From the IMG/VR virus record IMGVR_UViG_3300027963_000061, positions 1 to 64,000 of that record: a stretch of DNA of 64,000 nt. One strand, given 5' to 3'. Made by a program: the position numbers and the translations under genes. The stretch comes from a virus. This document shows, in pieces, positions 7,501-64,000 of the stretch; position 1 is the stretch's first letter, and each line of letters begins with the position of its first letter. The notes under the pieces were generated by a model. That model made no database searches, was not told the origin of the DNA, and saw only the letters and a list, made by a program, of their open reading frames with translations.

Positions 7501-7799
7501 AAGGATTCAGATTAAGATACGGTGTGTTAGAAGGACCAGAACATGGAGTATACGTTAGAGGTATTGCAACATCAAAAGTAATAGAATTACCTGATTATTG
7601 GACAGGATTAGTTCACGAAAATAGTATAACAATTCAATTGACACCAATAGGTTCAGCAACACTACATTATCTTGTTAAGATTGAAGATAATAAAATTTAC
7701 ATAGATTCTGAAACATCAGTTATAAATGTTAGTTTCTTCATACAAGCAGAACGTAAAGATGTTGAAAAAGTATTGATAGAATACAAAGAACAAGACTAA
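4596..7799 (+). CDS. Tail fibre with Gly-Ser-Thr triplet repeats and shared C-terminal module
   Basis: This protein has 1067 residues. Residues 1-43 are a non-repetitive head beginning MANEFVARNG, shared with the gene at 7842, so it is probably the attachment end. About 44-905 is an almost unbroken shaft of GTS, GSS and occasional GTA triplets, with rare GIN, GVS and GKS interruptions. The last 160 residues start with a TATGTAGT motif and end in a roughly 110-residue module beginning SFDIPHPTKEG, shared with the C-terminus of the gene at 11180. The shared head and tail modules suggest fibres built from interchangeable parts. The start ATG is preceded by an A-rich leader, as expected in Bacteroidota. 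Virion location is inferred; the repeat structure is directly visible. Confidence 0.85.
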   Translation: MANEFVARNGIKVLVVPSGSSSNQVVVWNATTNQLERRTDAGTSGSSGTSGSSGSSGTSGSSGTSGSSGTSGSSGSSGTSGSSGSSGTSGSSGSSGTSGSSGTSGSSGTAGSSGSSGTSGSSGSSGTSGSSGSSGTSGSSGTSGSSGTSGSSGTSGSSGTSGSSGSSGTSGSSGSSGTSGSSGSSGTSGSSGTAGSSGTSGSSGSSGSSGSSGTSGSSGSSGSSGSSGTSGSSGTSGSSGTSGSSGSSGTSGSSGSSGTSGSSGSSGTSGSSGTSGSSGTSGSSGSSGSSGSSGTSGSSGSSGTSGSSGTSGSSGTSGSSGTSGSSGSSGTSGSSGSSGTSGSSGSSGTSGSSGTSGSSGTAGSSGSSGSSGSSGTSGSSGSSGTSGSSGSSGTSGSSGSSGTSGSSGTSGSSGTSGSSGSSGTSGSSGSSGTSGSSGTSGSSGTAGSSGSSGSSGSSGTSGSSGSSGSSGSSGTSGSSGTAGSSGSSGSSGSSGSSGSSGSSGSSGSSGTSGSSGTSGSSGTAGSSGSSGTSGSSGSSGTSGSSGSSGTSGSSGTSGSSGTAGSSGSSGSSGTSGSSGSSGTSGVSGASGTSGSSGTSGSSGTSGSSGTAGSSGSSGTSGSSGSSGSSGSSGTSGINGSSGTSGSSGTAGSSGSSGSSGSSGSSGTSGSSGSSGSSGSSGTSGSSGSSGSSGSSGSSGSSGSSGKSGSSGTSGSSGTSGSSGTSGSSGTAGSSGSSGTSGSSGSSGTSGSSGSSGTSGINGSSGTSGSSGTAGSSGSSGSSGSSGSSGTSGSSGSSGTSGSSGTSGSSGTAGSSGSSGSSGSSGSSGTSGSSGSSGTSGSSGSSGTSGSSGTSGSSGTSGSSGTSGSSGSSGSSGSSGTSGSSGTSGSSGSSGTSGSSGSSGTSGNSAVVNNNTNTFVVTATGTAGTVQGNAGLRYDGSTLNVTGDTTMTGALTAASKSFDIPHPTKEGFRLRYGVLEGPEHGVYVRGIATSKVIELPDYWTGLVHENSITIQLTPIGSATLHYLVKIEDNKIYIDSETSVINVSFFIQAERKDVEKVLIEYKEQD
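4725..7313 (+). repeat. GSS/GTS triplet-coding repeat block
   Basis: The block holds about 860 codons of Gly-X-Ser triplets. The opposite strand carries an 880-codon open frame of Glu/Pro/Leu/Val codons, which is a by-product of the repeat composition and not a gene. Confidence 0.9.
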
Positions 7800-8437: not shown

Positions 8438-11146
8438 ATGTCAATTAGGGTAAATAAAGGTAATTTTAAAATAAATGCAATTGCGAGAGCGGTTCTTACG
8501 TTTATTCCACCTACACCAACTCCAACGACAACACCAACAACAACTCCGACAGCAACAGTTGGAACAAGTCCTACTCCAACTCCAAGTATCACTGCAAGTC
8601 CTACTTTAACAAAAACGCCAACAGTAACTCCTACGCCTTCAATAACCGCATCTCAAACAGTAACACCAACAAATACTGCAAGTCAAACACAAACTCCAAC
8701 ACCTTCAATTACTGCTAGCCAAACCGTAACACCAAGTAATACCGCAACTCAAACACAAACTCCTACACCAAGTATAACTGCATCACAAACTGTAACACCA
8801 AGTAATACTGCAACTCAAACACAAACTCCTACACCATCAATTACTGCTAGTCAAACACCAACACAAGGCTCAACACCAACTCCAACAATAACTCAAACAC
8901 AAACTCCAACACCTTCAATTACTGCTAGCCAAACCGTAACACCAAGTAATACTGCAACTCAAACACAAACTCCTACGCCTTCAATCACCGCATCACAAAC
9001 CGTAACACCAAGTAATACTGCAACTCAAACACAAACTCCTACGCCTTCAATCACCGCATCACAAACTGTGACACCAAGTAATACTGCAACTCAAACACAA
9101 ACTCCTACGCCTTCAATCACCGCATCACAAACTGTGACACCAAGTAATACCGCAACTCAAACTCAGACTCCTACACCAAGTATAACCGCATCACAAACCC
9201 AAACTCCTACACCAAGTATAACCGCATCACAAACCCAAACTCCTACACCAAGTATAACCGCTAGCCAAACAGTAACTCCAACTAATACCGCAACTCAGAC
9301 TCAAACACCAACTCCAAGTATAACTGCATCACAAACACAAACACCAACTAATACTCCAACACCAACTAATACGCCAACTAATACTTCAACCCCTACTAAT
9401 ACTCCAACTCAAACAGTAACACCATCATCAGTTCTTTATAATTGTGCATCTTGTACAGGAACAGGGTGGGTTCCATATAGTAGTACTCAATGTTATAAAC
9501 AAACAGTAAGTGCCGCAACTCCTCCAACATATACAGTACCATTACAAAGAACTGGGTTTGTTGATTATTCAATAAATGGTACAAGATTCTTTAACTCTGG
9601 ATATACTATTGGTGGAACTGGGTCAGTACAAGCAACATCAACAACAAATAACATTTGGTACAATCAAGTACCAAATAGTTCTACGGGACCAATGAATAGA
9701 AGTGCAATTTGGTACACTGCAGATACTTTACAAAATACTTGGATAGGATTTTCAACTTGTTTATCGGCGTCAACAATTAATGCGACCAAGACTTACTACA
9801 TTGGTACGGGTGCGGATAATGAATTCAGACTTGTGTTAGATGGTCAAGTTATAATTGATACGACTTATGGTAGTATGCCAGCTAGCGATAAATTTAAATA
9901 TTGGAATGTTTATCCTGTAACAATTCCTGCGGGTAATCATACTCTTGAATTATATGGTTTAGATTATGGAGTAGTTGCAGGGTTTGGTATGGAAATTTAT
10001 GATAATACATTAACCCAATTGACCGCAGCAACTTCAACAAGTAATTTGAATATTATTTGGTCAAGTAGCGGATACACAACAGCTGAAATAGTACAAGATA
10101 CTTCAGGTTATTATTTATCTTCAGGGTATACTTGTACTTATCCTGCGGTTTATTCAGTATGTAGTGGTGGATGTATTGATTACGTATATTGTGATGCACC
10201 AGGTATAACACCAACTCCAACACATACCGCAACTCAAACAAATACTCCGACAAATACTTCAACTAAGACACCAACTCAGACTCAAACTCCTACACCAACT
10301 AATACCGCAACTCAGACTCAAACTCCTACACCATCAATTACTGCTAGTCAAACACAAACACCTACACCAAGTATAACTGCATCACAAACACCAACACCAA
10401 CTCAAACACAAACAGGAACCGCAGCAGTAACACCAACACCAACTCCTACACCATTTGCAACATTTGTAGCATCATTTAGTTTCACAAGCCAAAGTGATGT
10501 ATGTTATCAAAGTGGGATAATTCCTATTGATAATTTCAGAATAATTAACAGTAGAACTGCTGGTTCAGATTTCTGTGATAATAGTATACAAGTAAGAAGT
10601 GCAATTATTGATGGAGCAACGTCTAATTTTATTTGGTTAAAATTACAAGGAACTGAAACAGTTAGAATGTTCCAAATACTATTGAATACTTTAGGAGGAT
10701 ATTATTATGCAATACCATACGAAGCTTGTACAACTTGTCCTACCCAAACCCCAACTCCTACCCAAACTCCTACCCAAACTCCTACCCAAACACCAACTCA
10801 AACACCAACAGAAACACCACCAGGAACATTTACAATTTCATGGACAAATAATTTTATAAACACTGGAACAAATACTTTGAACATATACAAGAACGCTGTT
10901 TTAATAGTAAACCAATCTGGACAAGGTAATAATTCGTTTTCAGTTAATAGTAATGATGTTATAACTTATGAATTAATATCCACCACACCTGACTATACCG
11001 AAGTTCAAATAATTGATAATATAAATGGTACTATTTCAAATTGTGGATACGGAAGTGCAAGTGTTGCAGAAACAAATGGGTATTCCTATACAAGTAACGC
11101 TACAATAGATGGAGTCACAACAAATTACGTAGGTGGATGTCCATAA
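8438..11146 (+). CDS. Pro/Thr-rich mucin-like adhesin with PA14-like domain
   Basis: This protein has 902 residues. After a 27-residue head it has a long Pro/Thr/Ser block (about 25-325) built on units such as TPTPSITASQT. A Cys-containing globular domain follows (about 330-585) with motifs NEFRLVLDGQ and AGNHTLELYGL, resembling PA14 or fibro-slime carbohydrate-binding sandwiches. Then come a second Pro/Thr block, a small domain, a third Pro/Thr linker and a C-terminal domain. The globular domain is clearly paralogous to the N-terminal domain of the gene at 27111. The stalk-and-domain layout suggests a surface-binding virion protein, and mucin-like stalks are classic O-glycan carriers. PA14 membership is judged from motif shape only. 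Confidence 0.75.
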   Translation: MSIRVNKGNFKINAIARAVLTFIPPTPTPTTTPTTTPTATVGTSPTPTPSITASPTLTKTPTVTPTPSITASQTVTPTNTASQTQTPTPSITASQTVTPSNTATQTQTPTPSITASQTVTPSNTATQTQTPTPSITASQTPTQGSTPTPTITQTQTPTPSITASQTVTPSNTATQTQTPTPSITASQTVTPSNTATQTQTPTPSITASQTVTPSNTATQTQTPTPSITASQTVTPSNTATQTQTPTPSITASQTQTPTPSITASQTQTPTPSITASQTVTPTNTATQTQTPTPSITASQTQTPTNTPTPTNTPTNTSTPTNTPTQTVTPSSVLYNCASCTGTGWVPYSSTQCYKQTVSAATPPTYTVPLQRTGFVDYSINGTRFFNSGYTIGGTGSVQATSTTNNIWYNQVPNSSTGPMNRSAIWYTADTLQNTWIGFSTCLSASTINATKTYYIGTGADNEFRLVLDGQVIIDTTYGSMPASDKFKYWNVYPVTIPAGNHTLELYGLDYGVVAGFGMEIYDNTLTQLTAATSTSNLNIIWSSSGYTTAEIVQDTSGYYLSSGYTCTYPAVYSVCSGGCIDYVYCDAPGITPTPTHTATQTNTPTNTSTKTPTQTQTPTPTNTATQTQTPTPSITASQTQTPTPSITASQTPTPTQTQTGTAAVTPTPTPTPFATFVASFSFTSQSDVCYQSGIIPIDNFRIINSRTAGSDFCDNSIQVRSAIIDGATSNFIWLKLQGTETVRMFQILLNTLGGYYYAIPYEACTTCPTQTPTPTQTPTQTPTQTPTQTPTETPPGTFTISWTNNFINTGTNTLNIYKNAVLIVNQSGQGNNSFSVNSNDVITYELISTTPDYTEVQIIDNINGTISNCGYGSASVAETNGYSYTSNATIDGVTTNYVGGCP
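8510..9423 (+). repeat. Pro/Thr/Ser tandem repeat coding block
   Basis: About 300 codons encode TPTP, SITASQT and VTPSNTATQTQ modules. A unit of 66 bases recurs several times in tandem between about 8690 and 9200, with synonymous differences between copies. Confidence 0.85.
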
Positions 11147-11179: not shown

Positions 11180-11809
11180 ATGGCAAATATAAACGTTTTT
11201 GATACTAATAACATAAAGTCTACAGGTTTAACCGTAAATGGTGTAACCGTGCTTTCAGGTAATAGTTCTGCGAGTATATTAACTGTAACTGGTCAGACAG
11301 GAACGTTTATGGAAGTGATTGATGACCCTACCTCTAATTTGTTGTGGGGTATATCAGGAGACACGGGTGCTGTTTTTGATGTTAATGATGATTCTATTAA
11401 CGCATATGTCAATTTTAACTATACGGGAAATACAACAACCTCAGGAAATACAACAATTACTGGTTCGTTAAGTGCGACAACAAAATCGTTTGATATTGCC
11501 CACCCAACAAAAGAAGGATATAGAATTACTTATGGTTGTTTGGAAGGACCTGAACATGCAGTTTATCATAGGGGAAGAACAAACTCAGATATAATTGAAT
11601 TACCTGAATATTGGTCAGGGTTGGTAGATGTAAATACAACAACAGTTCAGCTAACACCAAACGGCGAATACACACCACATTGGGTTGATAAGATTGAAGA
11701 CAATCAAATATACATCAAATCTGAATCAGGAAAAATTGATTGTTTTTTCCTTGTACATGGTGAAAGACAAGATGTTCCAAAGATTCTTGTTGTTTACAAA
11801 TCACTTTAA
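11180..11809 (+). CDS. Short fibre protein with SFDI-HPTKEG C-terminal module
   Basis: This protein has 209 residues. The N-terminal half is a Thr/Asn/Val-rich beta-structured region (TITGSLSATTKS near residue 100), and the C-terminal 110 residues start SFDIAHPTKEGYR and include CLEGPEHAVYHRGR. That module is homologous to the end of the repeat fibre at 4596, which has SFDIPHPTKEGFR and VLEGPEHGVYVRG. It may be a trimerisation, chaperone or receptor-binding end used by more than one fibre. There is no long shaft here, so this may be a short fibre or a donor of C-terminal variants. It converges on the minus-strand glycosyltransferase gene with one base between stop codons, so no terminator fits between them. 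Confidence 0.75.
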   Translation: MANINVFDTNNIKSTGLTVNGVTVLSGNSSASILTVTGQTGTFMEVIDDPTSNLLWGISGDTGAVFDVNDDSINAYVNFNYTGNTTTSGNTTITGSLSATTKSFDIAHPTKEGYRITYGCLEGPEHAVYHRGRTNSDIIELPEYWSGLVDVNTTTVQLTPNGEYTPHWVDKIEDNQIYIKSESGKIDCFFLVHGERQDVPKILVVYKSL

Positions 11810-11810
11810 A

Positions 11811-14093
11811 TTATAACGGCAAACTATTAAACACTTGTAATGGTGTGATAGATTTTTGACAAATATGTTGTCTCTCAGTTCCTTTATAAACTGGACACCA
11901 ATCCCAATCACCACCATCAAACGTTAACACAGGGTCATTCCAACATTTAATACAAAGGTTGTTTGAAACTCTTGTCATGTTATATGAAAACTCATGATTA
12001 TTTTCACTGAATCCTGCAATCATAACTGTTTTTTTACCTAACGCCCAGTTCATCCAAGATAGACCTGAACTTAAACCTACGAAGAAATCTGCGTGGAATA
12101 AAACATTCATAACTTCAGACCAATCTTTGGTATGGTTGTGTATGACACCATCAATATTGTATTTCTTTAATGATAAAATTACAACTTCATATCCCAATTC
12201 TTTTAACATTTTTGAAAGGGTAACCCAATTTTCAAAAACCCATTCTTTACAACCCGCAGTTGATTGAGGACCAAAAACAACATATTTCTTTTTTATTGGT
12301 CTTGCTTTAGGTGTGAAATTTAAACTATAATTCATCTCCCTGTATTTCAAACCTAAGATATCTGTTGCGGTTTGTTGTAGAGGAATTAGATTAATCTGAG
12401 TTGGATAATTATCAAACTTTCTCCAAGTTTGATTATCATCTTTAAACCAACCTAATCTATAGACCACATCACAATTAGTTGACTCACCAGGTTTTATGAA
12501 TGAAATGTCACTATAATCTTTGGAACCTTCAAACCATTCATTGTGGAATGTACTTAAAACAACCTTACATTTTTTTTCATTCATTAATTCAATTGCATAA
12601 GGTGCCCATGCTAATGTGTCACCGATAGCCTTTGTTTCAAAAGAGATTAAAACAGTTTTATTCTCCAAACTAAATCTATCAACAATTTCTCCGTTAACTT
12701 TTATAATCCAAGGAATGAAATATTTTTTGGAGCTGGCAACCCACATATTATTGGTAATTGTTTGAGAATGAATTACCTTATCATTATCACCATTGATGAA
12801 CTCAACAAAATATTCTTTTTTCTCATCACCTAAAACTTCAAATCTTGGACCATCTAAGTAATTTATAATAAATCTATTTTCTTTTTTTGGTTTATCTAAC
12901 CAAGGTTTTCTTTCTAAGAAATCGTTAATTGTTTCCAATCCTATTTCAGCAATACGTTCCCAATTAAATTCTTCTCTAATCTGTTCTGATTCTACTAATG
13001 CAAATGTTTTATATCTTTTATAATCACCATAAACCGCAATCATCTTTTCACCTAAATCATCAAAATCGGGTTCATAATAATTTCCAACATTATCATTGAA
13101 ATGATTATATGTGCTAGCACTTACTGGTAATTCGTGTGATATCTTAACAGGAATACCTTTACCTTCACCAAATTCTAATTGACCTGAACAATCTGAATAG
13201 ATTGATGGAGTACCACAAGCCATCGCTTCAATAAGAGGTAAGTTCCAACCTTCAGCTCTTGCACAAGATACAAATACACTACAAGATTTTAATAGTCTAA
13301 TATATTCTTCTCTTGGTGGGAAATGAAGAATCTTAATCCTATCATCTTCCAAACCATAATGTTTTAATCTTTCTTCAGTTGAATTCAATCCATCATTTGA
13401 GAATGGGTTATCAACAGAAACAATTAATTCAACAGGTTCGTTATTATTGAATGTGTTTACAAAAGTTTCAATAACCTCCTTGATGGACTTTCTATAATCC
13501 CATCTTCCTGCTAAAAAGAATGTGAACTTATCTTTTGTTAATGGGTGAGTAACCTCTGTGTCAGGGTAGAATGTGTTTACATCAACACCTTCAGGTACCA
13601 CCTTAATTCTATTTGGGTCATAACCTTGTGCAATGGTACAATCTCTTTGCCATTTTGATGGAACCCACATTTCATCAAACTCTTTTAACTTATTAAAGTA
13701 TTGTTGAGGTTGTAAGGTTGATTCCCATACGTTGTAGGCAATTTTTGGACCATCGTAGTTATCGTAAAAAATGTGATGATTTGTTTCACACAATACAATA
13801 TTGACATCAGGTTCAAACTCTTTAGATACATCAGGGTATAAAGGGAAATCACCTCTTGTTTTATCTGAGTTCCAAAGGATTTGTTTGTATAATAATTTTT
13901 TATCAATCTCATTAAAATAATGTTCATTATCATGAGCATTTTTATTGTATCCTTTCCACGATTTACCGACAGTAAAGTTTCTAACTTTAATATCTGCGTG
14001 TTTATCTAAATGTCTGAAAAAATCTCTTGTGTGTTGATTATATCCTGTGTCACCAACGTAAGAACCGTGGGCATAAATTTTAGGTTTGCTCAT
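11811..14093 (-). CDS. Two-domain glycosyltransferase: GT4 plus autotransporter heptosyltransferase-like domain
   Basis: This protein has 760 residues. The N-terminal half (about 1-390) is a GT-B glycosyltransferase of family GT4: GRWDYRKS near 196, and the acceptor-loop EX7E motif in EGWNLPLIEA (281-290) followed by CGTPSI. The C-terminal half (about 478-760) resembles the bacterial autotransporter O-heptosyltransferase family (TibC type): a GDTLAW motif, then CIKCWNDP, GDWDWCP and a last HIC near the end. Cys714, Cys717, Cys733 and Cys745 match the spacing expected for the iron-binding finger of that family. TibC-type enzymes attach sugars to Ser of repetitive autotransporters, so Ser/Thr-rich phage fibres next door are attractive substrates. 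It is divergent from the sugar operon at 14159. The fold calls are fairly sure; the protein-O-glycosylation role is inferred. Confidence 0.8.
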   Translation of the reverse strand: MSKPKIYAHGSYVGDTGYNQHTRDFFRHLDKHADIKVRNFTVGKSWKGYNKNAHDNEHYFNEIDKKLLYKQILWNSDKTRGDFPLYPDVSKEFEPDVNIVLCETNHHIFYDNYDGPKIAYNVWESTLQPQQYFNKLKEFDEMWVPSKWQRDCTIAQGYDPNRIKVVPEGVDVNTFYPDTEVTHPLTKDKFTFFLAGRWDYRKSIKEVIETFVNTFNNNEPVELIVSVDNPFSNDGLNSTEERLKHYGLEDDRIKILHFPPREEYIRLLKSCSVFVSCARAEGWNLPLIEAMACGTPSIYSDCSGQLEFGEGKGIPVKISHELPVSASTYNHFNDNVGNYYEPDFDDLGEKMIAVYGDYKRYKTFALVESEQIREEFNWERIAEIGLETINDFLERKPWLDKPKKENRFIINYLDGPRFEVLGDEKKEYFVEFINGDNDKVIHSQTITNNMWVASSKKYFIPWIIKVNGEIVDRFSLENKTVLISFETKAIGDTLAWAPYAIELMNEKKCKVVLSTFHNEWFEGSKDYSDISFIKPGESTNCDVVYRLGWFKDDNQTWRKFDNYPTQINLIPLQQTATDILGLKYREMNYSLNFTPKARPIKKKYVVFGPQSTAGCKEWVFENWVTLSKMLKELGYEVVILSLKKYNIDGVIHNHTKDWSEVMNVLFHADFFVGLSSGLSWMNWALGKKTVMIAGFSENNHEFSYNMTRVSNNLCIKCWNDPVLTFDGGDWDWCPVYKGTERQHICQKSITPLQVFNSLPL

Positions 14094-14102
14094 TTGTTAA
14101 AT

Positions 14103-14110
14103 TATTTATT
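14103..14110 (+). promoter_or_regulatory. TATTTATT box in divergent spacer
   Basis: The 65-base spacer between the minus-strand glycosyltransferase and the plus-strand sugar operon must hold promoters for both. TATTTATT lies 56 bases before the ATG at 14159, a distance like that of the box at 4534. On the minus strand a TTG, 20 bases, TATATTTT arrangement could serve the divergent gene. Both are weak calls. Confidence 0.3.
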
Positions 14111-14158
14111 GAAAATATAAAGGATATGTGTTATAATTTCAATTGAAAACTAAATATT

Positions 14159-14803
14159 ATGGCACAAGGAGTACATAAAATAACAGAAGATTTTGAAAAA
14201 GCTCTGTGTGACTACACGGGAGCCCCTCATGCAATCGCATTAGATAACATGAGTAACGCATTATTTTTGGCGTTATACTATGAAAAAAACATTAAAAAAA
14301 CATTAACGAGTGATACTGTTGATTGTCCATCAAAGACATATCCTTCGGTTCCTTGTGAAATAATTCATGCAGGATTGAAAGTTAATTTTACACCTGTTGA
14401 AGGAAAAACAATCAAAGGAGCCTATACCCTATCACCATCCAACGTAGTAGACTCAGCACTCAGATTTACGGCTGATATGTACCAAGCGGGTACTCACATG
14501 TGTTTATCTTTTACAGGTCCGTATAAGACCTTAAAATTGAGCAAAGGTGGTGCAATTATTACCGATGATTATCAGGCGATGTTATGGTTCAAAAGAGCAA
14601 GATTTAGTGGAAGGAGAGAATGTTCATATCATGATGACCATTTTGACATGCTCGGTTGGAATTTTTATATGATGCCAGAACTTTCGGCAAGAGGGTTATT
14701 GATGATGACACAGTTCTACAATTTAGATGGGACAAAAAAACATAATGCGGATTTGGAATTACCTTATCCTGACTTATCAAAATACGAAATTTATAACAAA
14801 TGA
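14159..14803 (+). CDS. DegT/DnrJ-like PLP aminotransferase, short form
   Basis: This 214-residue protein resembles the DegT/DnrJ/EryC1 sugar aminotransferases that add an amino group to nucleotide-linked keto-sugars. The segment SFTGPYKTLKLSKGG (117-131) aligns with the family PLP-lysine motif, making Lys123 the likely Schiff-base lysine. The N-terminal YTGAPHAIALDN resembles the substrate/PLP pocket start. Usual family members have about 370 residues; this one is much shorter, with the small C-terminal domain essentially missing, so it could be a compact variant or a reduced protein. It opens a plus-strand operon of sugar genes and overlaps the next start by four bases (ATGA). Confidence 0.65.
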   Translation: MAQGVHKITEDFEKALCDYTGAPHAIALDNMSNALFLALYYEKNIKKTLTSDTVDCPSKTYPSVPCEIIHAGLKVNFTPVEGKTIKGAYTLSPSNVVDSALRFTADMYQAGTHMCLSFTGPYKTLKLSKGGAIITDDYQAMLWFKRARFSGRRECSYHDDHFDMLGWNFYMMPELSARGLLMMTQFYNLDGTKKHNADLELPYPDLSKYEIYNK

Positions 14804-15381
14804 AATTAGCATTATTTGGATACGGGGGGCATGCTCGTGAGGTTGCGGTACAGATAGGTCAAGATGTGACCTTCTTTGTTGATGATGACTATGTAACAGA
14901 AAAGACTAAACCTATTAGTTCATTTGACCCGTCTGAATATGTTATGATGGTCGCGGTATCGGATGTAAACGATAGAAAAAGAATTGTTGACTCACTTCCA
15001 AAAGAAACAAAATATTTCACGTTTGTTCACCCAACAGTTCTTAGTATGGATAACAATATTGAAATCGGTGAAGGAAGTTTTATCGGAGCGTATTCAATAT
15101 TAACAACCAATATTAAAGTTGGAAAACATTCAATATTAAATAGAGGAAATCAAATCGGTCATGATTCAATAATTGGAGATTACTTTAGTGCGATGCCAGG
15201 TGCTATTATTTCGGGTAATGTTATTTTAGGAGAAAATGTTTATATGGGAACTAATTCTTCAATCAGAGAAAAAATTCATGTGTGTTCAAATGTAACAATT
15301 GGGTCAAATGCAACGGTTGTAAAAAATATTATAACAGGTGGGACATATGTTGGAGTTCCTGGTAAATTCAAAAAAAATTAA
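14800..15381 (+). CDS. NeuD-like sugar O/N-acyltransferase
   Basis: This 193-residue protein has an N-terminal small nucleotide-binding-like domain (LFGYGGHAREVA, residues 5-16) followed from about 85 by left-handed beta-helix hexapeptide repeats (IGEGSFIGAY, VILGENVYMG, VTIGSNATV). This two-part layout is typical of NeuD/PglD-type acetyltransferases that use acetyl-CoA to acylate amino- or hydroxyl groups of UDP- or CMP-sugars. Following a DegT-like aminotransferase, it could acetylate the newly added amino group, as PglD acts after PglE in bacillosamine synthesis. Start ATG overlaps the previous stop; length is normal for the family. Confidence 0.75.
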   Translation: MKLALFGYGGHAREVAVQIGQDVTFFVDDDYVTEKTKPISSFDPSEYVMMVAVSDVNDRKRIVDSLPKETKYFTFVHPTVLSMDNNIEIGEGSFIGAYSILTTNIKVGKHSILNRGNQIGHDSIIGDYFSAMPGAIISGNVILGENVYMGTNSSIREKIHVCSNVTIGSNATVVKNIITGGTYVGVPGKFKKN

Positions 15382-15382
15382 C

Positions 15383-16285
15383 ATGGTCCTTAAACATAGT
15401 TCAGATAAAATAACTTTTATTGTAGATACAATTCATTCAATTGGGTATGAGACAAAGGGTGCATCAATTGCTTGTCATAGGTTGGCTTATGAGCTGGCTA
15501 ATCAGGGTCACTACGTTTATATTTTTAATGAACCGTTTTATCCTCATGAAAATATTGGAGTAATACCCGTTGAAAAAAGAAATGAAGATGATGGGTGGTG
15601 GAATAAATTTTATTGGACACCATTTGGATATAATCCTGAAAGAACAGTTTCAATATACACTCAAATAACGTGGGGTAACCCGATGAATACAATTCATAAT
15701 GTAAGATGGGTATTACACGATTATGAGTCTGTGCAATGGGAGACATTTGGTGATAATGAATATGTTTGTAATTTTGGAACATTTCAAGTTCCTGAAGGAA
15801 TTAAACAAACTAAATTGACTATTTTTGATTATAAGTTTGATAAGTTTTATGATAAAAATAATCCAAGTAGAAAAGGTTTTGGACATATAATCCATAAGAA
15901 TACTCCTGAATGGGGGTTAGAATTTTTAAAACAATTTGGGTCAACAGAAATATCACATTATAACGGACAAAAAAATCTTGATTATTTAACGGACGAGTTC
16001 AACAAGTATGAATATGTTTTAACTTTTGATGATAAGTCATATTATACCACGGCAGCCGCTCTGTGTGGAACCAAGAGTATTATTTTGAATCCAAATGAGA
16101 ATATAACACCATCGGAATATAGATTAGAAAACCCTATTCAAATGTGCGGTGTTGCATATGGGATGAACAATATAAAATGGGCAGACCAAACGATTGGGTT
16201 GGTTAGAGACCATTTATTAGAATTGGAAAAAAGAGATAAACAAACAATATCTAATTTTTTAGAATATTGGAATAAAACATTATAA
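15383..16285 (+). CDS. Glycosyltransferase-like protein
   Basis: This 300-residue protein has its start set at ATG 15383; the frame is open 45 bases further up, but that part lies within the preceding gene. The N-terminus (ITFIVDTIHSIGYETKGASIACHRLAYEL) has the pattern of a GT-B N-terminal domain: strand, Gly-rich loop, then an RLAxEL helix. A C-terminal stretch with AALCGTKSIILNP near residue 235 resembles the donor-binding region where GT4 enzymes have ACGTP. Acceptor and sugar are unknown. It sits inside the sugar operon, two bases before the next gene. A glycosyltransferase role is likely but rests on local motifs and context. Confidence 0.55.
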   Translation: MVLKHSSDKITFIVDTIHSIGYETKGASIACHRLAYELANQGHYVYIFNEPFYPHENIGVIPVEKRNEDDGWWNKFYWTPFGYNPERTVSIYTQITWGNPMNTIHNVRWVLHDYESVQWETFGDNEYVCNFGTFQVPEGIKQTKLTIFDYKFDKFYDKNNPSRKGFGHIIHKNTPEWGLEFLKQFGSTEISHYNGQKNLDYLTDEFNKYEYVLTFDDKSYYTTAAALCGTKSIILNPNENITPSEYRLENPIQMCGVAYGMNNIKWADQTIGLVRDHLLELEKRDKQTISNFLEYWNKTL

Positions 16286-16287
16286 TA

Positions 16288-18168
16288 GTGGAAAAACAAG
16301 TAGGGTTAGTTGAAGTGTGGTTAGGTAAAATACCTGACTATTTCCAGTATCATCTTGAAACAATAGGGACAATATCCTGTGCCGACTTTTACTTCTTTAC
16401 CAACGATAGAGAGTACGATTTTTCTCAAATTAAACATGACAACTTTCATTTAAATTACATAGATGAAACTGAATTTTTAGAGAGATTTAATAAAACATCA
16501 AACATTAAAGTTGATAAGATATCACACCCAAAGAAGATTATTGATTTCAAATTAGCTTATTTTGAGATGTTTTCTGACTACGTTGGAAACTACCCATATG
16601 TTGGAATATACGATATTGATACAATGTTTGGTGATATTAATCAAACCATATTGGATAGTGTTAATCGTTATGATTTTATCTCTGTGGGTGATGAAGTATA
16701 CCATAACAGATTGAGTGGGCCTTTGATGATTGTTAGAAATACCAAAGAATTCCACGACTTAATGAAGACCGATAGATACTATGAAACATTAGTACAGGAA
16801 GACATATATGGTTACGGAGAACAAGAGTTATCTGTCATTGCGATGAACAACTATAAGACCAAGATAATCTACTCAATGAATACCGAAACAAATAATGGTG
16901 GAAAAAACAGTTACGATGTTTGTTGGAGTGGTGGTAAGTTAATTGTAAATAAAGAGGAGAAGTTAATCTATCATTTTATTAGGAAGAACCACACCATTTT
17001 TCAAAAGGTTGGAAACCAAATATTCGGTAGATATGATAAACAGTTTGCTGAAGACTTTTATTGGGTGTTTGGATTTACAGAGAATTACTCTCAGACAGTG
17101 CCATATTTGATGGATTCAATTAACAAATATTCTAATAGGATGTGTGTTATCTATACCATAAATTTTGATTATCAAATACCTAAAAAATTTTTAACAAGTG
17201 GTCAATTTATATTCAAAAGAATTGACATACCTGAGGGAAAAAAAGATTATAGAGGAAGAGATGAAAACATTATTAGCTCCAAACCAAAATTAATGTTGGA
17301 TGTTTTGAATTTCTTACCAAACAAAAAATTCATCTTTATTGATAGTGATGTTAGCTTAACAGTTAGTGCTGACGACATCAGTAAGTATTTTTCAAGATTA
17401 ACCAACTTTCCATTAATCAATTCACACACTCATGACAGAATTTATTTAAGTGGATTGGTTGAAGGTGAGCAGTGGACCAGTACGATTGATATTGTTGCGA
17501 ATAAAGTTGGGGTAGAGGTATGTGTTTATCCAAGAAGAAAGACAAACATTATGTTGTTTGATGAAAATTCAAGATGGTTTTTCCAAGAACAGATTGACCT
17601 ATATGAAACGTATAAGGATAGTGAACCTGGTATATTTGCCTTTCATGATGAGGACTCAGCTAATCTAATTCTTTCAAAATATAAATTATTTGATTGTCTT
17701 CATTTATGTGATATTGAAGAATGTGACGACATTGATATGGGTAAATTTTCAGATACCAATCATCCATTTCATATGACAGGGTTGTCTCCATTTTTGGTGT
17801 TACCAAAACATCAAAATGATGTGGTATTCTTTCACGGGCTAAAAGACATTGGTAGATTCCAATCCATAGAGAGGACATATGGAAACACTGTACTTGATTG
17901 TGAAGAATTGTTAGTAACCTATTCAAACAATTCTATTTTCTTTGAGAAGAACTCATTTTTAACTTCTAAAAAGATTGATGAGAATGTTGATTTCATAATA
18001 TCTGACTTAGATGGTAATATCATTGAAAAATTAGAGAATCAACAACTAATGAATTATTGGGTTTTTTACCTATCAAATGTTTTTTTAGAAAAAAAATCTT
18101 ATATTATTGAGATAGTTAAAACCCATAGTAAGGTCAAAATTTATAATAATCTTTTAAAAATACAATAA
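16288..18168 (+). CDS. Two-domain GT-A type glycosyltransferase
   Basis: This 626-residue protein uses a GTG start; no in-frame ATG fits near the preceding stop. The first half (about 1-260) resembles DUF6625-like glycosyltransferases: WLGKIPDYFQ near 11-20 and IYDIDTMFGDI with DxD at Asp109/Asp111. The second half (about 280-500) holds another GT-A core with FIFIDSDVS and DxD at Asp352/Asp354. DxD motifs bind the metal and the nucleotide-sugar. Two catalytic-looking domains in one chain suggest sequential addition of two sugars. The C-terminal 110 residues are unassigned. It sits two bases after the previous gene and two bases before the next, so it is co-translated within the island. Confidence 0.65.
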   Translation: MEKQVGLVEVWLGKIPDYFQYHLETIGTISCADFYFFTNDREYDFSQIKHDNFHLNYIDETEFLERFNKTSNIKVDKISHPKKIIDFKLAYFEMFSDYVGNYPYVGIYDIDTMFGDINQTILDSVNRYDFISVGDEVYHNRLSGPLMIVRNTKEFHDLMKTDRYYETLVQEDIYGYGEQELSVIAMNNYKTKIIYSMNTETNNGGKNSYDVCWSGGKLIVNKEEKLIYHFIRKNHTIFQKVGNQIFGRYDKQFAEDFYWVFGFTENYSQTVPYLMDSINKYSNRMCVIYTINFDYQIPKKFLTSGQFIFKRIDIPEGKKDYRGRDENIISSKPKLMLDVLNFLPNKKFIFIDSDVSLTVSADDISKYFSRLTNFPLINSHTHDRIYLSGLVEGEQWTSTIDIVANKVGVEVCVYPRRKTNIMLFDENSRWFFQEQIDLYETYKDSEPGIFAFHDEDSANLILSKYKLFDCLHLCDIEECDDIDMGKFSDTNHPFHMTGLSPFLVLPKHQNDVVFFHGLKDIGRFQSIERTYGNTVLDCEELLVTYSNNSIFFEKNSFLTSKKIDENVDFIISDLDGNIIEKLENQQLMNYWVFYLSNVFLEKKSYIIEIVKTHSKVKIYNNLLKIQ

Positions 18169-18169
18169 C

Positions 18170-19315
18170 ATGCATCATTCAGCTTATGTAAACGCGGAAA
18201 AATTCGCAATAAAATACACTCCAAACTTAGAGGGTAAAAAAATTCTTGACGTTGGTTCATACGATGTTAACGGAACATTAAAACCAATTTTTGAGAAAGG
18301 AATCTACACTGGTTTGGATATGGAAGCAGGTCCAAATGTTGATGTTGTTTCTGATGCTCATAATATCCCTTTTGATAATGAACATTTTGATATTGTTACA
18401 TCATCGTCTTGTTTTGAACACGATGATATGTTTTGGGTAACATTCTTAGAAATGTGTAGAGTGGTAAAACCTGGTGGTTATCTATATGTTCAAGCACCTT
18501 CAAATGGACCATACCACGGATGGCCTGGTGACAATTGGAGATTCTATATTGATAGTTGGAAAGCCTTAGAAAAGTGGGGTAAAAGAGAAGGATATGATAT
18601 TGAATTAGTTGAACACTACATAGATGAGACAACTCCACCAGCAGAACACGAAGGAGATAGATTATGGAATGATTCTGTTGCGATATACAAGAAGAAACCA
18701 TTACAAACATTTAATACTGATTTAAAGTCTATTGAAATAGGACATTTAAATACGACATATAGAGGGGTTATAATGCACAAATGTCCATTTGATGTTACGA
18801 TGTATCAAATGATAATAAATGAACTTAAACCTGACTTAATTATTGAGATTGGTACTTACAAAGGAGGTGGTGCCTTATATTACGCTGACTTATTAGATAT
18901 TATCGGTAAGGGAGAAGTTCATACAATTAATATAATGGAGGATGTTACTGACCCACAAATTATTAATAACTCAAGAATTAAACGATTCACTGAAGGATAT
19001 CAAAACTATGATATTAGTTTGGCTAACGGTTTTGAAAAAGTTTTGGTAATTGATGATGGTTCACATCATGCTCACGAAGTATTGGAGGCGTTCAATAAAT
19101 TCAAATCAGTAGTAACTTTAGGTTCGTACTATATTATTGAAGACGGAGTATTAAGTGATTTAGGTTATAACCCAACATATGGTGGTGGACCATTACAGGT
19201 TATGGATGAAATTATCAATAACAATAAAGACTTTACGGTTGATAGAAAATGGTGTGATTTTTATGGTGAGAATGCAACATTTAACCCTAATGGATATCTT
19301 AAAAGAACCAACTGA
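18170..19315 (+). CDS. SAM methyltransferase fused to CmcI-like domain
   Basis: This protein has 381 residues. Residues 1-180 form a class I SAM-dependent methyltransferase with motif I at ILDVGSYDVNG (25-35), an acidic loop TGLDMEAG, and VVKPGGYLYVQAPS as the post-motif strand. From about 190 a second Rossmann-like domain resembles CmcI/cephalosporin-hydroxylase-type methyltransferases: IIEIGTYKGGGALYYADLL and VLVIDDGSHHAHEVLEA. Both halves are expected to bind SAM, so the protein may methylate sugar hydroxyls at two positions, or one half may be regulatory. It lies inside the sugar operon, which favours a glycan substrate. Domain assignments are from motif recognition. Confidence 0.7.
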   Translation: MHHSAYVNAEKFAIKYTPNLEGKKILDVGSYDVNGTLKPIFEKGIYTGLDMEAGPNVDVVSDAHNIPFDNEHFDIVTSSSCFEHDDMFWVTFLEMCRVVKPGGYLYVQAPSNGPYHGWPGDNWRFYIDSWKALEKWGKREGYDIELVEHYIDETTPPAEHEGDRLWNDSVAIYKKKPLQTFNTDLKSIEIGHLNTTYRGVIMHKCPFDVTMYQMIINELKPDLIIEIGTYKGGGALYYADLLDIIGKGEVHTINIMEDVTDPQIINNSRIKRFTEGYQNYDISLANGFEKVLVIDDGSHHAHEVLEAFNKFKSVVTLGSYYIIEDGVLSDLGYNPTYGGGPLQVMDEIINNNKDFTVDRKWCDFYGENATFNPNGYLKRTN

Positions 19316-19321
19316 AGGACA

Positions 19322-20251
19322 ATGAATAAAGTAGCGTTAATCAGTACTTACTGTGATAATCAGGAAAAATTAGATGTTCTTGAGAAAAATATTGGCATAG
19401 TTAAATCTTATGGTTTAGATGTTATAGTGGTTAGTCCTATTGTTTTACCTGAAAGTATTCAAAAACAATGTGATTACTATTTCTTAACCAAAGACAATCC
19501 TGTGTTAGATTGGCCCAAAAGGGCAATGTACATATGGAGACAACTACCTTTAGGTGATGAGAAAATTGTAATAACAACAACATATCCTGACTACGGATGG
19601 GCGGGATTACTTCAAGTTAGACAATTAAGTGATATTGCATTAATGTTAAATTATGATTGTTTTTACCATATGATATATGATTTAAAAATTGATGATAATG
19701 TAAAACATTATTTTGACAACCCACATGAAAATATAATTTTCCCATCCAAAAGAGGAAATGAGATATGGAAAGTAGGATTACACCTTATGATTTTTGATAG
19801 AAAGAATCTAACACAATTTAAGTCGTTAATCTCAGAAGAAAGTTATTTTGCGGTTAAAGGAGACCACGCATTTAAATGGTTAGAAAGAATTATTGGTACA
19901 ACAAAATCTGAAATTGCAGAAACGCCTGTAGAAGATGAAATATATTACTACGAAGGTCACGACTTTTTCAATTCATCACCAGCAGAAGGAGTTAAATTTT
20001 TTATAAATAAAAACGATGAGGTTGATGAGACAATAAAACTATTATTTTATTATGTTTCTGAACCAAAAGAGGTAAGGATTACTATAAATGATACCTTTTA
20101 TGATTATGTAATTAATAAAGACTCACTCATTGATTTAGGGTTTGATAAATTTAATATTCCAAAAGTGTTATTTAAATATATGGGTGTTGAATATGATATT
20201 ACCAATACAATTAAAAAAATAAAACATAGTACACTTAACGTAACTAACTAA
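19322..20251 (+). CDS. Putative GT-A fold glycosyltransferase-like protein
   Basis: This 309-residue protein starts with MNKVALISTYCDNQEKLDVLEKNI, the usual first strand and helix of GT2-like enzymes, and continues with VIVVSP and a YYFLTKDNPVLDWPKRA stretch seen in phage glycan genes. No clean DxD is visible, so catalysis is uncertain. The last 80 residues look like a separate small beta domain. Neighbours on both sides are sugar-modifying enzymes, and it overlaps the next gene by one base (TAATG). It may be a glycosyltransferase or an accessory glycan protein. Confidence 0.5.
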   Translation: MNKVALISTYCDNQEKLDVLEKNIGIVKSYGLDVIVVSPIVLPESIQKQCDYYFLTKDNPVLDWPKRAMYIWRQLPLGDEKIVITTTYPDYGWAGLLQVRQLSDIALMLNYDCFYHMIYDLKIDDNVKHYFDNPHENIIFPSKRGNEIWKVGLHLMIFDRKNLTQFKSLISEESYFAVKGDHAFKWLERIIGTTKSEIAETPVEDEIYYYEGHDFFNSSPAEGVKFFINKNDEVDETIKLLFYYVSEPKEVRITINDTFYDYVINKDSLIDLGFDKFNIPKVLFKYMGVEYDITNTIKKIKHSTLNVTN

Positions 20252-20799
20252 TGATTGAGAATATACATTTATGGCATGCTGATAGAGGAAGTTATTTTGA
20301 TAGAAACGTCAACATAATTTCTTGGAGTAATGATTACCATATACACGTTGGGAAATACTGTTCTATCGGAAGAGATTGTAATTTCTTTTTACATGCAAAC
20401 CATAGACCTGATTGGATAACAACATCCTCCCAACTGTGGGGACCTGTTACACCTGAAATTGCATCATTACACATGGAGATGGGTCATCCATCTTGTAAAG
20501 GTGATATTATAGTTGGTAGTGATGTTTGGATTGGTGCCAAGTCAACAATAATGTCTGGTATTAAAATCGGACACGGAGCAATTGTTGCTGCGGGTGCATT
20601 AGTAACCAAAGACGTTGAACCATTTTCCGTTGTTGGTGGTAATCCTGCAAAACATTTAAAGTACAGATTTGAAGAACAACAAATTAAAGACCTCTTAGAT
20701 ATTGCTTGGTGGGATTGGGAAGAAAGTAAGATTAAAGAAGAAGCGATGACATTATGGAGTCAAGACATAAATTATTTTATAGAAAAACATAAGAAATGA
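20251..20799 (+). CDS. CatB-type hexapeptide-repeat acetyltransferase
   Basis: This 182-residue protein has left-handed beta-helix repeats from about 30 (IHVGKYCSIGRDC, IIVGSDVWIGAKSTIMSG, IKIGHGAIVAAGALVTKDV) and the VVGGNPAKHLKYRF tail typical of CatB/xenobiotic acyltransferases, LacA and cell-surface sugar O-acetyltransferases. The HxxHRPDW segment near 50 probably carries the catalytic His. It should transfer acetyl from acetyl-CoA to a sugar hydroxyl. This is the second acetyltransferase in the operon after the NeuD-like one, so the final glycan may carry two acyl groups. It overlaps the next start by four bases. Confidence 0.8.
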   Translation: MIENIHLWHADRGSYFDRNVNIISWSNDYHIHVGKYCSIGRDCNFFLHANHRPDWITTSSQLWGPVTPEIASLHMEMGHPSCKGDIIVGSDVWIGAKSTIMSGIKIGHGAIVAAGALVTKDVEPFSVVGGNPAKHLKYRFEEQQIKDLLDIAWWDWEESKIKEEAMTLWSQDINYFIEKHKK

Positions 20800-21641
20800 T
20801 AACAGTAACATATAATTCAGACGGTATTAAAGTTAGTGTTGGACACATTAGCAAATACAACAAAAATTTACCATTAAAGTTAAACATTAGAAAGCATGTT
20901 AGTGGAGATGTACAATGGTCATCAAACTTAAATGATAATTGGTTTGCTACATATCCTAATACAGAAATGTTTGATGTTGAAATTCTTGATTCAAGAGGAG
21001 TAATTGTGTATACCAAAAAATGGGACATCATGGAGCACGGAAACCATTTCTATAAGTCTTTATGGGCCTATAATAAATCATTATTATCTAATGGAAAATT
21101 CCCAACAGGGTTAGTTATCGGAACACATGATGGTGAGTTTGGAGAGTGGGTACCAATAGTTCAAAATAGAGAATGTAAGGTTGTTTTAGTTGAAGCTTCA
21201 GACAAACAATTTAATAAGTTAAAACAAAATTATACTAAAAACTCACTCGTTAAACCAATTCAAAATTTAATAACACCAAATGGTGGAGAGGTTGAATTTT
21301 TTGAGGGAGGTGAGGGATATACAAATACCATAGTTGAAAGTGTTATTAAACATTGGGAAAAAGAAGAAATTCACTCAACTAAAAAAAGCTCTATTAGTAT
21401 TACCGATTTGATTCTATCAGAATGTGGTGGGCAAATTGATTGGTTACACCTTGATGTTGAAGGGTTAGATGCTCAATTAATTATGGGGATTGATGAAACT
21501 AAAGTTTCATTACCCAATTTTATTATTTTTGAAGATTATAATTTATCTCAAGATAAAAAAGATGAGATTTATAACTGGTTAAAGAACAAAGGCTTTGAGC
21601 TCAAATCTGAGGGTGGAATTTGTGAGGCAATAAAAAATTAA
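20796..21641 (+). CDS. FkbM-like methyltransferase
   Basis: This protein has 281 residues. After an N-terminal domain of about 85 residues, a SAM-binding fold begins near 105 (GLVIGTHDGEFGEWVP, motif I-like) with VVLVEASDKQFNKLKQNY as motif II. Near the C-terminus IDWLHLDVEGLDAQLIMGI is a strong match to the FkbM family signature. FkbM enzymes O-methylate sugars and polyketides. It is the last gene of the island on the plus strand; downstream lies a small minus-strand ORF, with no clear terminator. The extra N-terminal domain is unusual for the family. Confidence 0.75.
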   Translation: MITVTYNSDGIKVSVGHISKYNKNLPLKLNIRKHVSGDVQWSSNLNDNWFATYPNTEMFDVEILDSRGVIVYTKKWDIMEHGNHFYKSLWAYNKSLLSNGKFPTGLVIGTHDGEFGEWVPIVQNRECKVVLVEASDKQFNKLKQNYTKNSLVKPIQNLITPNGGEVEFFEGGEGYTNTIVESVIKHWEKEEIHSTKKSSISITDLILSECGGQIDWLHLDVEGLDAQLIMGIDETKVSLPNFIIFEDYNLSQDKKDEIYNWLKNKGFELKSEGGICEAIKN

Positions 21642-21927: not shown

Positions 21928-24900
21928 ATGGCTGCAAATATTTTCATAAGTAATAGTTCACTAGACATTGTCATAAACGATGTATACTTCAATGGAGTCC
22001 AAGCGACTTATGCTGGAGGAGTTCCTCTACCAAACCAAACAGGTGATGGAACTAATTTAGAAACAACACAAGTTGGAACTTATACTTTAGATGTTTACTA
22101 TTCTGTAGGTGTTCCAGGACAAAATATAACAATCACAGACAGTGATGGAACATTCCAATGTTACTTCTTCGGTTCGTCAGGAGTTGCCTCATTTATAAAT
22201 GTGAATTATGATGGTTTTACTCCAATATACATATATGGTTATGACGGAGCTTGTTCTCCTCCACCAACACCAACCGAAACATCTGTGACTCCAACACCAA
22301 CACCAACAATCCCTTGTATTGATTGTCAAGATTACTATAATAATTCAGGGCCGTTGACTGGTTTCTATTATTATGATTGTAATGGGGTTTATCATGCTAA
22401 TGAATCTTTAGATTACGGTGGTAGTATTTGTGTCAGTGGAGGATTGACTGGACCTGTAGGATTCTTAACTTTAATAGGTACTTGTGGTACTTACTGCCCT
22501 GGTGACATTACAACCCCTACGCCAACGCCAGATTCAACACCACCATCAACGCCAGATTCAACACCACCTGTTACACCAACACCAACACCAATATGTTCTG
22601 TTGTTTCATTCAACGGTTTTTCAGGACTATCATTGAACGATGCTTGTGCTCAACTATATCCAATAACAATTTACTATTGTGGGTCTTTAGGTGTGGGTAC
22701 TGATTTATATGCCGACGCATCATTAATAAATCCTGTTAATACACCAGGATATTATAATGACCCGAATAACTTACAAGTTTATCATGTTGGACTGCCAAGT
22801 GTTCAAGATGGAAGAGTCACTGACATTCAATACTGTTTACTACCAACTCCAACTCAAACACAAACACCTACTGAAACTACTCCGTGTAGTTGTACATATT
22901 ATGATGTTATTGTTACTAATAATGATATAGATAGTGCTACGGGTAACACTACAACAAATTGGAATAATACCGTTTGGGCGTGGTATTATGATTGTAATAC
23001 GGGTTTTTCTTTAGATATGATTTTTTATTCTGCTGACCCTTATTATAATACTTTATGTAATAATAATATTATCGGGGTGCCATATTTGTATTATCATATA
23101 AATGATGTACCAACAGCTTTAGGAATAACGTCTACAATAACTAATAATTTAACTTGTTGTACTGTTGACCCAACTCCAACTAATACCCAAACACCAAGTG
23201 AAACTCCAACACAAACACCTACAAATACAGAAACACCAACCCAAACTCCAACACCAATATGTTCTGTTGTTTCCTTCAATGGTTTCTCAGGATTATCACT
23301 TAACGATGCTTGTGCTCAATTATATCCATTAACAATTTATTATTGTGGTTCTTTGGGTGTGGGTACTGATTTATACGCCGACGCATCATTAATAAATCCT
23401 GTTAATACGCCAGGATATTATAATGACCCGAATAACTTACAAGTTTATCATGTTGGACTGCCAAGTGTTCAAGATGGAAGAGTTACCGACATTCAATATT
23501 GTACTCTACCAACACCTTCTCCAACACAGACACCTTCAGAAACTCCAACTCAAACTCCAACATTAAGTCCTGGCGCAAGTCCATATCCAACTACAACACC
23601 TACGCCAACACCAAGTGAAACACCAAGTGAAACACCGCCAGTAACACCAAGTGAAACACCGCCAGTAACTCCAAGTGAAACACCGCCAGTAACACCAAGT
23701 GAAACACCGCCAGTAACACCAAGTGAAACACCGCCAGTAACACCAAGTGAAACACCAAGTGAAACACCAACACCAACTCAGACACCAACTCCAAGTATAA
23801 CAGCATCACAAACTCAGACACCTACGCCAGACCCGACGCCAACTATAACACCAACATCAAGTATAACTGCGTCGCAAACTCAGACACCAACACCAAGTAT
23901 AACTGCGTCACAAACTCAGACACCAACACCAAGTATAACTGCGTCACCAACACCAACACCAGGATTTGCGGTTCAATTTGTAGATTGTTCTAATAGTGAG
24001 AATATTTTCAGATTTAATGACCCAGCAATTCCCTCAACGATTGGAGTAACTTATTACATTACAGGAAGTACATCATTTGATGGATGTGCAACTACGGTTG
24101 TTAATGATGGTTCAGGTCCTCAATATAATGGAGCAGGAGTTTCATTCTTAATGACAGGTGCAGGATGTGGTGACCCAATTTGTCCAAGGTCAAGTAATAA
24201 AGCCGCGTTATTAACAAGATGTTCCGATGGAGAAGTATTTTATTTCAATGTTGAGGAAGACACAGCATTTGTAGGCGCAGCATATGTTTATGATGGTGTA
24301 TGTTATGGGTTTGTTGAATTTTCAGGTCCAGGTGGAGATAACATTGGTTCACCATTATACCAGAATTGTTTTGATTGTTTGGCACAACCAACTCCAACTC
24401 CAACACCTTATCCAACACCTACAAATACGCCGACTGTTTCATCTACACCACCAGCATGTATCTATACATCATTTTGTTTAAGTTCAACACTTTCAAGCGT
24501 AATTAACTACAACGGAAATTATGACGAAACTGGATTTTATAATGGTAAACCATATTATGTGGGTGATGGTGCGACAACAGGTTACATTTATTATGTAACA
24601 GGTTCAACAGAGTATTGGTGTTTATCAAGTAGTCTTGGAGGTACTTGTATTTTACAAGGAGCTTCTCCTTGTTATTCACAATGTCCTGATATATTGGCCA
24701 ATGGGTTTACAGGTGGAATTTGTCCTACACCAACACCAACACCAATTAACTGTAATACATTTAATTTTAATGCTTATTTTGATTGTGATTGGGAACCATT
24801 ACCAACACCTACACCAAGTGTTGCTTGTGACGATGTCAATTTTGATATAGGTTCTATCGGAGTTACTCCGACACCATCTCCAACAGGAATTATTTGTGAT

Positions 24901-62361: not shown

Positions 62362-64000
<1,639 letters not shown>

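Follow-up and report, generated by a model that had tools for sequence, protein, structure and literature searches.

A TibC-type glycosyltransferase fusion beside Gly-Ser/Thr triplet fibres: a probable system for fibre glycosylation in a phage genome

Here we describe a sugar-gene island and the adjoining fibre genes in a viral DNA stretch of 64,000 nucleotides (the window), which forms the first 64 kb of the 82,742-bp IMG/VR record IMGVR_UViG_3300027963_000061. We propose that this uncultured phage probably glycosylates its own Gly-Ser/Thr triplet fibres with the enzyme encoded by the gene at 11811, a fusion of a GT4 domain with a domain of the BAHT type, to which the O-heptosyltransferases TibC and AAH belong. 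Family membership, a conserved active site and the co-occurrence and co-localisation of enzyme and repeats were computed here; from these we infer the fibres as substrate, the order of sugar addition and the sugar identities.

The GT4 half of the fusion protein matched PF00534 (Glycos_transf_1) with an E-value of 4.1e-15 and 56.2 bits against a gathering score of 26.4. The BAHT half scored 225.7 bits with TIGR04414, the NCBI equivalog model for the autotransporter O-heptosyltransferases TibC/AAH, which is above the equivalog cut-off of 200, and aligned over 345 residues with the crystal structure of TibC (PDB 4rap; E 2e-43), published in eLife 2014 e03714 (PMC4358343). The model of the N-terminal beta-barrel, TibC_1st (PF21129), gave an E-value of 1.8e-4 and 21.9 bits, under its 27-bit cut-off; this region lies within the TibC alignment. 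In TibC, D110 is the catalytic base, K230, T226 and W305 make up the sugar site, and four cysteines hold the iron of the 'iron finger' (PMC4358343). The 11811 protein carries Asp492 (D110), Lys616 (K230), Trp680 (W305) and a counterpart of Thr226, and its iron finger is intact, Cys714, Cys717, Cys733 and Cys745 corresponding to C339, C342, C358 and C370 in the arrangement C-x2-C-x15-C-x11-C. D110, K230 and W305 were kept in every phage sequence covering these sites, and the iron-finger cysteines in 77 of the 82 phage and 16 of the 17 cellular sequences covering theirs. Judged by profile and active site, the C-terminal domain is a member of the TibC family, thereby bearing out the TibC likeness claimed by the original prediction, which had been made from the sequence alone. 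Five phage TibC-type enzymes do not fit this pattern: these standalone BAHT open reading frames (ORFs), namely L048, L049 and three more of the set L047-L086, have jointly lost the iron-finger cysteines and kept the active site, and they provide a natural test of what the iron does.

Two defining features of TibC, itself a dodecamer that transfers heptose to Ser, were not found: the adenine-contact arginine and an autotransporter substrate. TibC uses Arg286 to contact the adenine of ADP-heptose; this residue confers ADP-sugar specificity and is required for activity (PMC4358343). It is replaced by Val in the 11811 protein, as P300 is by Ser, and the transfer of heptose is therefore doubtful. 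The Arg286 position is occupied by T, V, L or S across all GT4-fused phage relatives covering it, and the arginine is also lost in several bacterial relatives. The 11811 enzyme probably works like the TibC system.

The proposed substrates are two fibres composed largely of Gly-Ser/Thr triplets, both of them true open frames; the record starts within the repeat of the first. Fibre 1 contains 568 Ser and 256 Thr in 1481 residues and fibre 2 contains 474 Ser and 119 Thr in 1067, which makes 1042 Ser and 375 Thr per 2548 residues for the two combined. Since synonymous codons are mixed, the triplet repetition is maintained at the protein level. The tip domain of fibre 2 is 58% identical to the short fibre encoded by ORF 11180-11809, and the 11811 gene, on the minus strand, has its end one base from the end of that gene.

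A scan of viral contigs for the TibC-type domain gave 148 relatives, and Gly-Ser/Thr repeats were present in 33 of 47 BAHT-bearing viral records. To avoid choosing records on the answer, we picked them via an unrelated anchor gene (30058-32247), located 8.4 kb beyond the right end of the island, and kept the 48 larger records. Repeats were scored as stretches of DNA that encode four Gly-[Ser/Thr]-[Ser/Thr] triplets in a row; the 48 records had no match to the reversed pattern used as a control. Enzyme and repeats occurred together in 23 records, BAHT only in 4, repeats only in 2 and neither in 19 (p 1.8e-7 by Fisher test, which here and below ignores the relatedness of records). The BAHT gene lay 7-29 kb upstream of the anchor, on the opposite strand, in 27 of 27 records. 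When the set was restricted to records covering 30 kb or more upstream, the corresponding counts were 10, 1, 1 and 12 (p 8.9e-5). The association thus persisted when mere record truncation was considered as the cause of absence. Loci selected on the fibre tip domain gave 16, 3, 4 and 57 (p 1.4e-10), and same-tip fibres lacking the repeat mostly had no BAHT gene nearby. In a tree of the anchor protein with all records, about 7 independent pairs differing in both traits were concordant and none opposed (median p 0.016).

Pro-Thr repeats, which served as a negative control, were found in 47 of the 48 anchor-selected records irrespective of the presence of BAHT, so the link of BAHT with the Gly-Ser/Thr repeat is specific. 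The claim of the original prediction that the island enzymes act on the fibres was thus strengthened for the Gly-Ser/Thr fibres, by co-occurrence in phages as well as chromosomes, and did not extend to the Pro/Thr stalks, nor to the collagen fibres, which lie far off. Relatives keeping the fibres without the island, an outcome that would speak against fibre glycosylation, were also looked for, and only 2 of 25 repeat-bearing anchor-selected records were without the enzyme.

The strongest argument for the repeat as substrate is the same pairing in cellular genomes, since a shared phage module is there removed as its cause. The profile was found at 17 loci in bacterial and archaeal genomes. L284, among chaperone and glycolate-oxidase-like genes, and L291, with a dioxygenase-like gene alongside, are plainly chromosomal. 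A stand-alone BAHT gene often has as its immediate neighbour a gene for a (GTSGSS)n protein; these partners are small, are secreted or lipoproteins, and frequently carry an acidic tail. Bacterial pairs of enzyme and repeat occur without a sugar-gene island. Across the 13 genomes in which hits were mapped, 120 of the 138 repeat hits fell within 10 kb of BAHT, and most or all did so in 12 of 16 whole genomes. Of 369 genomes sampled from a single bacterial class, 2 had TIGR04414, too few for a separate test, and 26 had the 45-base repeat pattern, several of its matches not coding for Gly-Ser/Thr.

The (GTSGSS)n proteins beside BAHT were located at L284 8902-9783, L285 8936-9907, L288 7893-9058, L290 3596-3934, L291 7793-9000 and L294 8853-9803. 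The hosts of these pairs are methanotrophs and other Gammaproteobacteria, and several partner proteins end in runs of Asp/Glu. The simplest pairs, an enzyme gene with a GTS protein gene adjoining it, are those of Methylomicrobium sp. RS1 and Methylobacter sp. BlB1. The contigs L280, L281, L286 and L295 may be viral. L289, labelled Candidatus Pacearchaeota, has the same island genes (GT4, BAHT, DegT, NeuD and the ORF 15338 type) and is probably a misbinned phage contig.

GT4-BAHT fusions are also present in the isolated Microcystis phage Mel-JY01, whose record gave 17 repeat hits, and in a 735-kb huge phage (LR756501.1), whose record gave more than 1400. In Mel-JY01 (PP395634.1, L005) a frame of more than 1000 residues of GTSGSS repeats occupies 2-3052 and stops some 1.7 kb short of the fusion gene, which places one enzyme-repeat pair in an isolated phage. 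In that record the repeat frame is mostly annotated as opposite-strand genes and the fusion as 'methyltransferase FkbM'. The hits in the 735-kb phage overlap and lie on one strand, suggesting one or more very long repeat proteins. Other domain arrangements were seen as well: a PIG-L deacetylase fused after GT4-BAHT (L044 8828-12574), and a protein in which two GT9-type (BAHT) stretches are combined with a GT4 domain (L041 4192-8040).

Several observations weigh against fibre glycosylation by the 11811 enzyme. An arginine required for the activity of TibC is replaced. The substrates shown for TibC/AAH are autotransporters, and none was seen among the ORFs of the window, where the BAHT-linked protein is a Gly-Ser/Thr fibre. 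Some records (G045, G046, L155) have repeats without the enzyme, and Gly-Ser/Thr repeats are lacking from the 57-66 kb records of L008 and L019/G005, whose enzymes are the two nearest to the 11811 enzyme (90-91% identity). Dropping truncated records from the tree left 3 independent pairs, a number too small for formal phylogenetic testing, and the tree control alone is accordingly weak.

On the mechanism we propose, the TibC/AAH-type domain would add the first sugar to the hydroxyls of Ser, and perhaps Thr, in the (Gly-Ser/Thr-Ser)n stalks, in the host cytoplasm and during fibre synthesis, and the fused GT4 domain would probably add the second. The short DegT aminotransferase and the NeuD-type acetyltransferase would probably supply an amino sugar in N-acetylated form; extension of the glycan would probably fall to two or three further glycosyltransferases, and its capping to the two methyltransferases and the Vat/CatB-like acetyltransferase. 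The likely gain for the phage would be fibres that are stiff, hydrated and resistant to proteases, along with a surface open to variation as island genes are swapped. The remaining genes of the island are likely to build this glycan too, although we are less sure of this than of fibre glycosylation itself.

The main rival explanation is that the island remodels the lipopolysaccharide or capsule of the host, so as to mask receptors or exclude other phages, and is unrelated to the fibres. DegT, NeuD, FkbM and GT4 genes are common in O-antigen and capsule clusters, and the closest relatives retain the island in records without Gly-Ser/Thr fibres. However, the key enzyme comes from a family of protein O-glycosyltransferases and keeps the iron finger, its occurrence is tied to that of the repeat fibres but not to that of the Pro-Thr fibres, and the pairing recurs in chromosomes without such an island; nor was an integrase noticed in the ORF lists, which annotate only part of the record. 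We regard host remodelling as distinctly unlikely. An intermediate arrangement, in which fibre modification is the work of the TibC-type domain (with GT4) alone and the remaining island is an independent surface-modification cassette sharing the locus, deserves some weight though we think it unlikely. It is in keeping with bacterial enzymes and repeat proteins standing alone and with island contents that vary widely across relatives. Against it, the GT4, DegT, NeuD, 19322-type glycosyltransferase, CatB-like and FkbM genes occurred in the tip-selected loci only where BAHT was present, the 19322-type glycosyltransferase (found at 53 loci, 44 of them also with BAHT) stands close behind BAHT in many marine phages, and some GT4-BAHT proteins carry a fused PIG-L deacetylase.

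Enzyme and repeats might also be linked only through a shared variable fibre module, gained and lost jointly, with no enzyme-substrate relation. With a median gap of about 3.6 kb they are close neighbours in phages, so joint loss is to be expected, and the independent events are few. Yet the pairing is found at unrelated chromosomal loci, the presence of Pro-Thr fibres in this module is not tied to that of the enzyme, and same-tip fibres without the repeat are mostly without the enzyme nearby. We regard such a linkage as very unlikely. Least credible is that the glycosyltransferases modify phage DNA, as in the hypermodification of T4. DNA glucosylation is, according to PMC12619734, the best known role of phage glycosyltransferases, and T4 beta-glucosyltransferase is one of many GT-B folds to which ORF 15338 bears a weak resemblance. 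On the other side, the TibC-type family modifies protein Ser, the island is set among fibre genes, and we noticed no enzyme for base hydroxymethylation in the ORF lists. Glycosylation of the Gly-Ser/Thr fibres by the 11811 enzyme remains the reading that we prefer.

The island (11811-21641) is filled by nine ORFs in the ORF list. Past the spacer that follows the leftward 11811 gene, eight ORFs form a tightly packed rightward run (Table 1).

Table 1. Fibre genes, the GT4-BAHT fusion gene and the remaining island genes in the window.
Feature	Position	Strand	Evidence or remark
Gly-Ser/Thr triplet fibre 1, proposed substrate	1..4446	+	5' end cut by record end; GSS 179, GTS 169, GTD 52 triplets
Gly-Ser/Thr triplet fibre 2, proposed substrate	4596..7799	+	1067 residues; GSS 186, GTS 85; C-terminal tip domain
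Pro-Thr-rich fibre between triplet fibres and BAHT gene	8438..11146	+	neighbour, no BAHT link
Short fibre, tip domain as in fibre 2, no triplet repeat	11180..11809	+	phrog_17490 E 1e-38
Fusion protein, 760 residues: GT4 (about residues 1-391) and TibC/AAH-type BAHT (about 392-760)	11811..14093	-	PF00534, TIGR04414, TibC 4rap
BAHT domain of the fusion	11811..12920	-	TibC active-site and iron-finger residues
Divergent spacer between BAHT gene and rightward island operon	14094..14158	.	65 bp
Short DegT/DnrJ/EryC1/StrS-type aminotransferase, 214 residues	14159..14803	+	PF01041 E 9.5e-14
NeuD/PglD-type sugar acetyltransferase	14800..15381	+	TIGR03570 143.4 bits, below cut-off 160.8; PglD_N and Hexapep above cut-off
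Probable GT-B glycosyltransferase (weak)	15338..16285	+	no family; low-confidence model; start probably 15374
Two-part GT-A-like glycosyltransferase	16288..18168	+	DUF6625 in N half (PF20330 E 6.3e-21); conserved YDIDT, FIDSDV
Two-domain methyltransferase	18170..19315	+	Methyltransf_11 PF08241 E 1e-10; RMNT_CmcI PF04989 E 3.6e-30
GT-A glycosyltransferase, C-terminal beta domain	19322..20251	+	model pLDDT 93.5, glycogenin-like fold
Hexapeptide O-acetyltransferase, Vat/CatB-like	20251..20799	+	NF000490 141 bits, below equivalog cut-off; phrog_16087 E 2.6e-46
FkbM-type methyltransferase	20796..21641	+	PF05050 E 5.2e-10, 40.1 bits against 22.7
Pro-Thr-rich fibre past island	21928..26172	+	neighbour, no BAHT link

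All nine ORFs that had been described as genes of sugar chemistry were found in place, each with family or fold support, and the aminotransferase, acetyltransferase and methyltransferase labels given to ORFs 14159, 14800, 18170, 20251 and 20796 were strongly supported by protein families. The three further glycosyltransferases proposed alongside them fared unequally. For ORFs 15338, 16288 and 19322, sequence profiles against solved structures gave nothing useful, and a Pfam search with alignments found no match for 15338 and 19322, for which predicted folds were used instead of sequence. The confident model of ORF 19322 matches GT-A enzymes, including glycogenin and the PBCV-1 capsid glycosyltransferase. 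In ORF 16288, the YDIDT and FIDSDV stretches fit the two DxD domains that had been predicted, and its N half matches DUF6625. The model of ORF 15338 (pLDDT 69.8) resembles GT4 enzymes with TM-scores of about 0.4-0.5 (PimA E 1.9e-6), which weakly suggests a GT-B glycosyltransferase. At 214 residues the DegT-type aminotransferase is a minimal form of its family; its length is kept in relatives (208-226 residues at 41-97% identity). Taken together, the accessory genes would fit the synthesis and decoration of an N-acetylated amino-sugar glycan.

The island had also been placed between blocks of fibre genes, which is correct for the triplet and Pro-Thr fibres. About 41 kb separate the island from the collagen-like fibres, which begin at 62362 and have an endosialidase-type chaperone; the triplets of these fibres are mostly non-Ser/Thr. 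At this distance and with few Ser/Thr triplets, we found no linkage of a Gly-Pro-Thr/BclA-type fibre to the island. Island contents differ widely among relatives. Inspected by eye, L008 11185-21101 and L019 11147-21100 have NDP-sugar epimerase-, 2-oxoglutarate oxygenase- and sulfotransferase-like genes in place of the fibres, and L004 11637-12475 (about 74.6-75.5 kb of its record) has an APS-kinase-like ORF adjoining an HxGH nucleotidyltransferase-like ORF. The APS-kinase-like ORF and the sulfotransferase-like ORFs of the relatives could point to sulfated glycans. The anchor gene at 30058 had no match among cultured phages, so the phage cannot be placed via isolates. Promoter-like TTTG...TAnnTTTG motifs numbered 14 against 3.6 expected from local shuffles, a weak hint that the host may be a member of Bacteroidota.

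Beyond this phage, we lean towards the view that a TibC-type enzyme and a (Gly-[Ser/Thr]-Ser)n protein form a general, mobile two-gene glycoprotein module, which would serve phage fibres as well as small secreted proteins of methanotrophs and other bacteria, and would extend past autotransporters as substrates and past ADP-heptose as donor. In the literature covered, from which subscription papers were mostly missing, neither phage-encoded TibC-type enzymes nor glycosylated repeat fibres were found. If the proposal holds, an enzyme known for modifying bacterial adhesins would be widely at work in phages, so far unrecognised (148 viral relatives in one scan, with members in a cyanophage and in huge-phage genomes), fibres of nearly pure Gly/Ser/Thr would be explained as glycan scaffolds, phage surfaces could be changed by swapping sugar genes, and the substrate of a member of this enzyme family could be predicted from its neighbour gene. 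The claim is testable in vitro because the enzyme-substrate pairs are small and simple.

Serine-rich repeat adhesins are modified by the dedicated glycosyltransferases GtfA/GtfB, and further enzymes extend the glycan. As here, dedicated glycosyltransferases adjoin a Ser-rich repeat surface protein, whereas the priming enzyme is unrelated and the Gram-positive secretion system is absent here. Glycosylation of the major capsid protein of PBCV-1 (2P73, 2P6W, 2P72) likewise involves virus-encoded virion glycans, and ORF 19322 shares the GT-A fold; this likeness is one of fold only, as PBCV-1 is an algal virus with another acceptor and no TibC-type enzyme. In mycobacteriophages, virion glycans have been reported at the C-termini of capsid and tail tube subunits (Freeman et al. 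2023, via PMC12619734). The two cases share a tailed phage with its own glycosyltransferases for virion proteins, as proposed here, and differ in that repeat fibres are the proposed targets in our phage and a TibC-type enzyme is the key one. The closest comparison is with TibC/AAH (BAHT, TIGR04414). Unlike these, the 11811 enzyme is fused to GT4, is encoded by a phage, has Val in place of the adenine-contacting Arg286, and has as its partner a Gly-Ser/Thr triplet fibre and not an autotransporter. Like them, it passes the curated cut-off of the family, keeps the catalytic Asp, Lys, Trp and Thr/Ser together with the four iron-finger Cys, and is encoded beside a repetitive, Ser-rich surface protein.

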